A stretch of DNA of 64,000 nt from Aliarcobacter trophiarum LMG 25534 (GTDB lineage Bacteria > Campylobacterota > Campylobacteria > Campylobacterales > Arcobacteraceae): NCBI RefSeq assembly GCF_003355515.1, contig NZ_CP031367.1, forward strand, positions 1,488,001-1,552,000. Reading direction: 5' to 3'. The stretch's first letter is position 1, and each line of letters opens with the position of its first letter. This document shows, piece by piece, positions 1,975 to 12,386 of the stretch. A program made the position numbers and the translations under genes. The notes under the pieces are model-generated. The model was not told where the DNA came from, searched no databases, and saw only the letters and a list, made by a program, of their open reading frames with translations.

Positions 1975-2162
1975 TTAAAGTATAACTTAGCTTTGTTAAG
2001 TTTTATATGCTAAATTATACAATTAAATCTTATTGTTAAATAGCTAATGTTAGAAAACTTGAAAATATATTTTGTGAAGTTAGGATATTTTATAACAGAG
2101 TTAAAGGATCTTAAGTGAAACTTTAAAATTATTTAACACTGAATTTTATTTAATAAATAAAT

Positions 2163-2303
2163 CTATTTATTTTGTAGATACTCTTTTGCAATTTTAATAC
2201 ATAAACCAGATTTTGAACTTGCATCTATCAGACTTTCACCATTGCTTATAAGTCTTAGAAGTACTAACTGTTTTATTTGCATACTAACATTTGTTATTGA
2301 CAT
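2163..2303 (-). CDS. 46-aa helix-turn-helix-like small protein downstream of the cold-shock gene
   Basis: This ORF is not a shadow of another gene. The ATG (2301-2303) is preceded by AAGGAG at ideal spacing, and the frame runs 46 codons to TAG. The middle, ISNGESLIDASSKSGLCIKI followed by AKEYLQ, has the pattern of a homeodomain-like HTH: helix, Gly-x-Ser, Ala/Ser-rich helix, Gly turn, recognition helix ending AKxYL. It lies 59 bases downstream of the cold-shock gene on the same strand, with no clear terminator between, so the two are probably cotranscribed. It could be a mini DNA-binding regulator. I do not recognise a named family; function is inference. Confidence 0.6.
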   Translation of the reverse strand: MSITNVSMQIKQLVLLRLISNGESLIDASSKSGLCIKIAKEYLQNK

Positions 2304-2362
2304 TTTTCTCCTTTGTAATATTTATATTTTGTGAATATGGTTTATAACTAAACCATATTACA

Positions 2363-2578
2363 CTAGATAGAAGCAACATTCTTTGCTTGAGGACCTTTTT
2401 CATTTCTACCAATTTCAAAAGATACCTTTTGTCCTTCAAGCAAGTTAACTCTTCCATAATCTGAAGAGTTAATTTCACTATGATGAACAAAAAACTCATC
2501 ATTTGAATCTTCTAATTGGATAAATCCAAAACCTTTTTCTGTGTTGAACCATTTTACTGTTCCAATATTTTGTGCCAT
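2363..2578 (-). CDS. Cold-shock domain protein (CspA family)
   Basis: A 71-residue single cold-shock domain that binds single-stranded RNA/DNA and melts RNA structure. RNP1 KGFGFI (about residues 15-20) and RNP2 FFVHHS (about residues 29-34) are intact, as is the aromatic VKWFN strand. Length is typical. The leader looks short: a TACAAT -10-like box at 2614-2619 and a 6-bp hairpin at 2594-2610 lie within 45 bases of the start. This differs from the long thermosensor leader of E. coli cspA, so cold induction by the E. coli mechanism is not evident. A 46-aa HTH-like ORF follows on the same strand. Confidence 0.95.
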
Positions 2579-2955
2579 TGTAATTCCTTAAATTACTTCT
2601 TATCGAAGTATGTATTGTATATAAAGTGTAATGAGGAGTTATATTTTAATAGATGTTCGTATTAACTTTGTGAGTATCAATAAAAGCAAACTAAAGATGT
2701 GTAAAAACTCTAAATCATCTTTAACGAAATCATTGTATCTGAATAAATAAATTAATGCAAATTAGTATATGAAAATTATAATTTTTTAAAGAAAATAGGT
2801 CAACTTTATTTTTAAATGGTATTTAAATATTCCATAACCTTATCTTGAAACAAATTATCCTCCATAAAATATTTTTAGAAATCCTAATTTAAACTAAAAG
2901 ATATACCAAATTAATAAAAAATTAAATTGGTACAAAGATTTTATGATTTAGATAA
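2579..2955. other. Long AT-rich intergenic region between the cold-shock gene and the YciI gene
   Basis: It holds the cold-shock promoter region (2594-2619). An imperfect inverted repeat at 2904-2932 (TACCAAATTAAT facing ATTAAATTGGTA, one mismatch) could end transcription of the YciI gene. A 17-codon minus-strand ORF at 2812-2865 contains GGAGG followed by an in-frame TTG and reads MEDNLFQDKVMEYLNTI. I see no convincing gene in the rest. Confidence 0.4.
2594..2619 (-). promoter_or_regulatory. Likely promoter -10 box and 5' hairpin of the cold-shock gene
   Basis: On the minus strand TACAAT (2619 to 2614) is a plausible -10 element. Just inside the transcript, TACTTC (2594-2599) pairs with GAAGTA (2605-2610) around a 5-base loop. 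A stem at the very 5' end of an mRNA often stabilises it. No -35 is evident, which is usual for the housekeeping sigma factor in this phylum. Prediction only. Confidence 0.35.
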
Positions 2956-3243
2956 TTAACTTTTTTTAAGTATTGCAATTGGAACTATCTGTATCTCATC
3001 CATATTCCAAACATTATTTACAACATAAGGTTCATCTTCAAGCCAAAGATCAAGCTCTTCATCTGTAGGAAAATCTACAAATAGTGAGGAACCAACCATT
3101 TTATCATCCTCAATTAAAGCTCCTGCTGAAACTATTTTCCCATCTTCCATTAATCTTTTTACATTTTTTATATGTTCTTCTCTTACTTCTACTCTTCTCT
3201 CATAAGCATCATCATAATCATAAGCTATTATTAAAAATTGCAT
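2956..3243 (-). CDS. YciI family protein
   Basis: A 95-residue protein of the YCII/dimeric alpha-beta barrel superfamily, opening MQFLIIAYDYDDAYERR, with the conserved His in EEHIKNVKRLMEDGKIVSAGAL and the DFPTDEELDLWLEDEPYV stretch typical of the family. Members are small dimeric proteins; the exact reaction is usually unknown and some act in catabolism of chlorinated or heterocyclic compounds. It stands alone between a cold-shock gene and an unrecognised membrane protein, so the context gives no clue to substrate. Confidence 0.85.
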   Translation of the reverse strand: MQFLIIAYDYDDAYERRVEVREEHIKNVKRLMEDGKIVSAGALIEDDKMVGSSLFVDFPTDEELDLWLEDEPYVVNNVWNMDEIQIVPIAILKKS

Positions 3244-3286: not shown

Positions 3287-3670
3287 TTATAAAGTAGTTG
3301 CAAAAATGAATAATAGAGGATAGATTAATACATTTAAATATCTAAAAAGTGGTGTAATATTTACATTAAAAGGAATTATTTCGGACAAAGATACTCCATT
3401 TGAGAGCTTCTTCATAATAGATAGTTTAAAAACAATATCAAAAAACTTCAAAGCTAGAATTGAACTCATCAAAAAGCCAAAGTTATTTTGAGTAATACTT
3501 AAATAAATTGAGAAAAAAAATGACATATGCAAAATAAAATATAGAAATATATTTTTTTTAAAAACTATATAATTTAACTCCAACATTCCATAAAGAGTAT
3601 TAGATTTTTGCCAATTTGACTCAAAAATCTCAATAGCAATAAAAATAAAAAAAAGAGAAAATATTTCCAT
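3287..3670 (-). CDS. Unrecognised small integral membrane protein downstream of rpoC
   Basis: A 127-residue protein with about four hydrophobic stretches (roughly residues 2-14, 40-58, 62-78 and 105-125) and short Lys/Asn-rich loops. I do not recognise the family. It starts 27 bases after the rpoC stop, and between them lies a perfect 10-bp hairpin (3677-3699). The only Shine-Dalgarno-like GAGG near the start is buried in that hairpin, so translation may be weak or conditional. Codon use is as AT-rich as the neighbours. Confidence 0.6.
   Translation of the reverse strand: MEIFSLFFIFIAIEIFESNWQKSNTLYGMLELNYIVFKKNIFLYFILHMSFFFSIYLSITQNNFGFLMSSILALKFFDIVFKLSIMKKLSNGVSLSEIIPFNVNITPLFRYLNVLIYPLLFIFATTL

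Positions 3671-3699: not shown

Positions 3700-12386
<8,687 letters not shown>

Follow-up and report, generated by a model that had tools for sequence, protein, structure and literature searches.

Csp proteins reportedly act as antiterminators, a role attributed to Bae et al. 2000. Three described systems come closest to the locus examined here: the CspA-type cold-shock genes, operons headed by a tRNA gene, and helix-turn-helix (HTH) proteins of the TrpR type. In A. butzleri, cspA falls into the highest cold-induced cluster (>4.5 log2) in the excerpted text of PMC7530382, and the excerpt of PMC6511841 describes a cold-induced E. coli operon whose first gene is an initiator tRNA. The gene described below encodes a predicted HTH protein of 46 residues and stands behind a cold-shock gene (csp) in the window, by which we mean the whole 64,000-nt stretch of Aliarcobacter trophiarum LMG 25534 that was analysed. 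No published description of this 46-aa gene was recognised in the literature searched. Together with its relatives it forms a family of conserved small proteins that marks three kinds of locus: csp genes, a csp-type leader, and tRNA genes, among which the initiator tRNA is present in most cases. We propose that, in some Campylobacterota, this family is part of the gene set for cold shock and translation initiation. The protein thus offers a testable candidate cold-shock/translation-initiation factor of about 46 residues in this phylum, with no match above cut-off in Pfam or NCBIfam.

A small gene behind csp

The features of the locus are collected in Table 1. Reading along the minus strand, promoter-like boxes come first, then a leader block and csp; after a gap of 59 nt that contains a hairpin, csp is followed by the small ORF on the same strand. 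The csp product scores 82.5 bits against the cold-shock domain (CSD; cut-off 27, PF00313) and is the sole CSD match in the 1.9-Mb genome at E<=0.001. A promoter scan returned 6 promoter-like sites against 5.8 expected and is no evidence alone, and the promoter boxes therefore rest on the place they keep in relatives. No terminator-like site was found between window positions 2050 and 2850, and the hairpin in the gap may be a read-through or processing element. The gap measures 33 nt and has no predicted fold in two relatives (L086 and L088); in many others it is longer and carries hairpins, and some gaps are free of them. Where the ORF is missing downstream, several csp genes are, by eye, followed immediately by a hairpin and a run of T.

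Table 1. Features of the csp locus, with positions in the window
Feature	Position	Strand	Basis
Small gene, 46 aa, ATG to TAG, predicted three-helix HTH protein	2163..2303	-	ORF list, conservation, model
Shine-Dalgarno (SD) AAAGGAG of the small gene, ending 4 nt before the ATG	2308..2314	-	Read from the sequence; family-wide SD control
csp, 71-aa cold-shock-domain protein	2363..2578	-	Pfam PF00313 CSD, E 2e-23
Hairpin between csp and the small gene, without a U run behind	2331..2363	-	dG -15.1, z -4.68
Conserved csp 5' leader element, common to lone small-gene copies	2650..2728	-	Leader models, alignment
Promoter-like boxes TTTGCA / TACAAT	2732..2761	-	Place kept in relatives, by eye

Other frames surround the operon. 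A 72-aa frame (window 2284-2502, minus strand) overlaps csp in another frame and is probably mechanical. Upstream of the csp operon lie a YCII-domain gene (window 2956-3243, minus strand; E 8e-11) and a 127-aa frame (window 3287-3670, minus strand) with no Pfam match, and the same genome has a tRNA-fMet match about 11 kb from csp.

The original prediction had credited this ORF with an ideal ribosome-binding site, had called it too short for usual gene calling, and had suggested from its place behind a cold-shock gene that it may be a small temperature- or stress-linked regulator; both the site and the neighbour are as it described them. It had proposed a protein search in relatives and dN/dS on orthologues as checks, and both came out in favour of a conserved protein. 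Searching with the single protein gave matches without internal stops in 64 of the 104 genomes of the host family (28/31 in the host genus), and a 16-row profile reached 68/104 genomes in 11 of 20 genera, with 78 copies and internal stops in none. Named relatives, comprising Aliarcobacter and Arcobacter species, Sulfurovum and Sulfurimonas, contributed 19 loci. In a sample of the phylum, at least 41 of 397 genomes matched at E<=1e-5; the phylum searches score at most about 17 candidates per genome, so that counts outside the host family are lower bounds. Two phylum matches were judged spurious, one a second match in G015 (23-aa frame, E 0.0017) and the other a partial match inside a 223-aa frame in G392 (E 0.009). 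For comparisons between loci we used a set of 72, made up of 60 stretches from host-family and phylum matches plus 12 of the 19 named-relative loci, the other 7 having been dropped as duplicates; this set omits some matches, and the 78-copy count of settings given below covers every host-family profile match.

Pooled over 16 close pairs, dN/dS was 0.185 (52.5 nonsynonymous changes over 1621.8 sites, 70.5 synonymous changes over 442.2 sites, with sites treated as independent, which makes the P value indicative only), and changes by codon position numbered 37/17/69. Single pairs vary, with dN above dS in 3/28, on few changes. An SD-like motif precedes 63/72 family members, as against 315/2880 random ATGs in the same loci. 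A chance ORF was considered and rejected on the conserved matches in 64/104 and 68/104 genomes and on the dN/dS value. Neither of the outcomes that the original prediction had named as refuting, a frame broken in close relatives or a lack of protein over DNA conservation, was found. The small ORF is a genuine gene, easy to miss, and it is under purifying selection.

The ORF and csp tend to occur in the same genomes (67/1/18/18 for both, ORF only, csp only and neither; Fisher 2e-9 over 104 genomes, in a test that ignores relatedness). Among the csp-bearing genomes 18/85 are without the ORF, and one genome with the ORF has no csp match (G085). One member of the host genus (G014, locus L168) keeps csp and its leader with the ORF absent. 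Both genes are missing from G025; G028 likewise lacks the ORF and gives only weak CSD matches. At L168 an apparent decayed second csp, identified by eye, sits where the small gene would be.

Genomic settings and the csp-type leader

The earlier link to cold shock, drawn from the neighbouring gene, is supported and widened by the wider sample. Of the 78 copies in the 104 genomes, 32 are found downstream of csp on the same strand at a distance of no more than 1 kb, a further 24 are preceded by their own csp-type leader, and 22 show neither arrangement. Seventeen of these 22 stand behind tRNA genes, 13 of them directly behind initiator tRNA-fMet, which lies 61-183 nt before the ATG and was recognised by its anticodon CAT and the initiator signature of C1 facing A72 and a GGG/CCC anticodon stem. 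The remaining 4 follow a tRNA-Arg that closes a tRNA array (G066, G090, G094, G098), with tRNA-fMet just before the tRNA-Arg in G066. Five of the 78 copies have no recognised setting (G063, at a contig end, and G077, G079, G081 and G082).

In the 72-locus set a csp-cluster gene is present in 31 loci, on the same strand in 31/31, a count that misses the csp of the window (masked by a longer overlapping frame) and that of L140. In loci from outside the host family, an upstream tRNA-fMet is separated from the ORF by 22-29 nt in five cases (L068, L070, L071, L139, L140) and by 167-168 nt in two (L081, L137), and L190 and L193 have an upstream tRNA-Met that is initiator-like by its letters. In L139 and L140, which come from two genomes of another family, the order is csp, tRNA-fMet, ORF, and the L140 csp is readable upstream of its tRNA; csp is also present in L141. 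At gathering score, Rfam returned tRNAs only, in 14 loci.

Several further arrangements were seen in these loci. Directly upstream of the ORF in L138, L191 and L192 is a tRNA-fMet-like stretch, uncalled by ARAGORN and apparently decayed (by eye). Three genomes (G034, G055, G079) hold two ORF copies each, from both halves of the protein tree, one of them behind csp; the second is behind tRNA-fMet in G034 and G055 and has no recognised setting in G079. L086 and L088 carry a tRNA-Gly/tRNA-Met cluster (6743-6930) about 2.7 kb behind the small gene. A putative SAM methyltransferase gene (by eye; 216-225 aa; cluster 24, 4 loci) recurs near csp, standing between csp and the ORF in L090, L129 and L132 and behind the ORF in L098, and a methyltransferase-like frame is found behind csp in L168.

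The csp leader of the host group contains a block reading AAAGATG..CATCTTT..GCTTTTATTGAT..GTTAATA. A narrow model of it, trained on 16 csp leaders only, gave 16 matches at E<=1 in 53 other loci. It recognised the leader directly before the ORF in 11 of the 14 lone-ORF loci and before csp in 4 of the 15 csp loci, in which the leader has mostly diverged; the one further match lay elsewhere. Eight of the lone-ORF leaders matched at E 5e-5 to 0.015, values that are rough given the short calibration. Run on the 104 genomes, the same model matched 25 times; assignment by hand put 23 of these ahead of csp and the other 2 ahead of lone ORFs. A broad model, built from 28 training leaders of which 10 were lone-ORF leaders, gave 98 matches in the 104 genomes. 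Of these, 69 stand ahead of csp and 24 ahead of the ORF, the latter including 10 training loci; the other 5, examined for ORFs and tRNAs, are all weak (E 0.0018-0.0101) and stand before neither. The broad model had no match at E<=1 in 25 loci outside the leader clade. This work thereby defines a leader element, with 93/98 matches directly before csp or the small gene. A weak second leader match in the window genome (G000:C1:1720889-1720956, minus strand; E 0.004) is not before csp or the ORF and falls in a region where the same strand also carries a frame of 399 aa. We found 0 compensatory pairs in the leader, hence no covariation support for base pairing, and a z of -0.84 for folding of the whole leader, and for these reasons treat it as a conserved sequence element. 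A search of window positions 2100-2800 against Rfam at E<=1 gave one chance snoRNA hit (E 0.22) and no cspA thermosensor family.

On the protein tree the five settings need 4 changes, which is the minimum. This tree has 72 rows, only 49 columns, many weak forks and a midpoint root, and its 'tRNA' label includes L124 (tRNA-Arg), L138 (decayed tRNA) and L069 (tRNA truncated where the contig stops). Since tRNA-linked copies occupy both halves of the tree, the ancestral place of the gene was likely behind tRNA-fMet; csp would then have joined once, and the csp-type leader would have taken over in another branch, as far as so weak a tree can indicate.

Predicted fold and proposed function

Family members are about 43-56 aa long at their likely starts, some mechanical frames being longer. 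AlphaFold, given 20 sequences, placed helices at residues 3-20, 25-32 and 36-45 with pLDDT 86, and this predicted model has the three helices and the tight turn between helices 2 and 3 of an HTH. A single-sequence AlphaFold model with two helices was discarded in favour of this alignment-based one. When the Foldseek list was aligned with VIA-align, TrpR-like proteins came top (Z 6.0, 46/46 residues aligned, rmsd 1.5-1.6), followed by PrrA (5.6), a serine recombinase (5.3), NtrC1 (5.0), DeoR (4.8) and Fis (4.6); VIA-align calls Z values up to 6.0 middling, and such values may reflect a common arrangement only. Foldseek alone gave no match at E<=0.001, and sequence searches of the PDB nothing meaningful. 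The window protein has no Pfam or NCBIfam match. Among family members scanned in Pfam, HTH matches were sub-threshold only (best HTH_28, E 0.0042, 2/24 members), as was the ParB HTH (E 0.035, 2/24 members). The model therefore supports an HTH fold as a prediction, in the sense of a fold class and not of membership of a family. The protein had been read as a minimal homeodomain-type HTH; of this the HTH holds as a prediction, and the homeodomain type is not singled out: TrpR-type folds rank first, and the variable helix 3 of the family has no homeodomain recognition-helix signature.

Across the 72 loci, L18, E23, S30 and K31 are invariant, A28 is kept in 71/72 and R17 in 66/72. The four invariant residues lie in helices 1 and 2 and their loop, none in helix 3. 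Helix 2 hardly changes across the family, while helix 3, the would-be recognition helix, is variable; for this reason sequence-specific recognition of DNA should not be taken for granted. The net charge is +3 for the window protein.

The protein probably binds nucleic acid and serves as a small component of the machinery for cold shock or for the start of translation. Our preferred reading, to which we give a probability of about one half, is that the gene is the second of a csp operon and encodes a three-helix HTH protein, made by read-through, that binds nucleic acid and adjusts transcription. On this account csp transcription would rise in the cold, and RNA polymerase would read past the gap hairpin and place csp and the ORF on one transcript, so that the small, mildly basic 46-aa protein would be made together with Csp. 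Depending on its setting, a family copy would be expressed behind csp, under a csp-type leader of its own, or as part of a tRNA transcript, in most cases one with the initiator tRNA. The protein would bind nucleic acid, probably DNA and perhaps as a dimer, and would adjust transcription of translation or cold-adaptation genes.

Published primers help to connect the ORF with a csp of recorded cold induction. The A. butzleri cspA primers given in the excerpt of PMC7530382 have 0 and 1 mismatches to the csp genes of L086, L088, L098 and L168, of which the last fits the primers yet is without the ORF. The A. butzleri rnr and nusA primers from the same excerpt are exact in G003 (the genome of L088), the others of the 7 genomes either having 1-3 mismatches or failing to match, and in G003 the ORF lies 33 nt behind the primer-matched csp. 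As G003 matches both further primers exactly, the published cold-induced A. butzleri csp is, judged from primer sequences, most likely the one followed by the ORF at 33 nt.

A DNA-binding regulator is the role we find most likely, followed by one that faces RNA or the ribosome. In the latter, appreciably less probable, the protein would be a translation-initiation accessory that binds, for example, the 30S subunit, initiator tRNA or the leader of csp, with the HTH as its RNA interface. Its setting behind initiator tRNA and csp would suit such a role, as would a helix 2 whose S30 and K31 are invariant in 72/72 loci while helix 3 varies; however, HTH folds mostly bind DNA, and the tRNA neighbour may only supply a strong promoter. 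A protein-protein adaptor, with RNA polymerase or Csp as a conceivable partner and no binding to nucleic acid, would agree with invariant residues that all lie outside helix 3, but no partner is known and most members are net positive (median +4, range -1 to +10), and we regard it as unlikely. We would be rather surprised, too, if the protein proved to be a dedicated link between the supply of initiator tRNA and the cold-shock response, a minimal HTH protein sharing its transcripts with tRNA-fMet or Csp and sensing or adjusting translation initiation at low temperature through RNA (initiator tRNA, 30S subunit or csp leader) and not DNA.

A mobile-element factor (Xis-like or AlpA-like) that stayed behind near tRNA attachment sites would also be a small HTH protein near tRNA genes, and by eye an integrase-like ORF lies downstream in L006/L087. 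We nonetheless consider this very improbable, as the neighbour clusters that recur in four or more loci did not look integrase-like by their starts (by eye), the settings follow the protein tree with the minimum of 4 changes, and PHROGs gave nothing beyond chance (a single member matching in each of 2 families, best E 0.054). A leader peptide or a non-coding csp 3' region with an accidental open frame would explain a short frame at the end of the csp transcript and can practically be set aside, being contradicted by the dN/dS and codon-position changes, by downstream genes that differ between subfamilies and by a protein kept in settings without csp.

A DNA-binding regulator from the csp operon remains our first choice. 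The original prediction was right on the gene and plausibly right on a cold-shock-linked HTH protein. The wider pattern, in which the small gene is joined to the initiator tRNA and shares a common csp leader, is a more interesting result than the gene itself.

Comparison with known systems

In fold, the nearest described proteins are the TrpR-type HTHs (E. coli TrpR and the TrpR-like 3g1c, 3kor and 3frw), onto which the whole 46-aa model aligns at Z 6.0. The small protein is half as long and has 9-11 % identity to these proteins in the structure alignments. The Z of 6.0 is not clearly above that of other HTHs at 5.0-5.7, and the likeness to the TrpR superfamily may reflect a common arrangement; no Trp repressor family came up when sets of 16 and of 24 members were scanned with Pfam. 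In gene order, the E. coli metY-nusA-infB operon, cold-induced according to the excerpt of PMC6511841, likewise has an initiator tRNA gene upstream of protein genes. In the present family, unlike in that operon, what follows the tRNA is a small HTH-like ORF. As in CspA-type cold-shock genes, about 150 nt with a conserved block precede the CSD gene of this locus. The present family differs from the CspA type in that a small second gene stands behind csp in 32/78 copies, and in that small genes standing alone also have the leader block in front of them.
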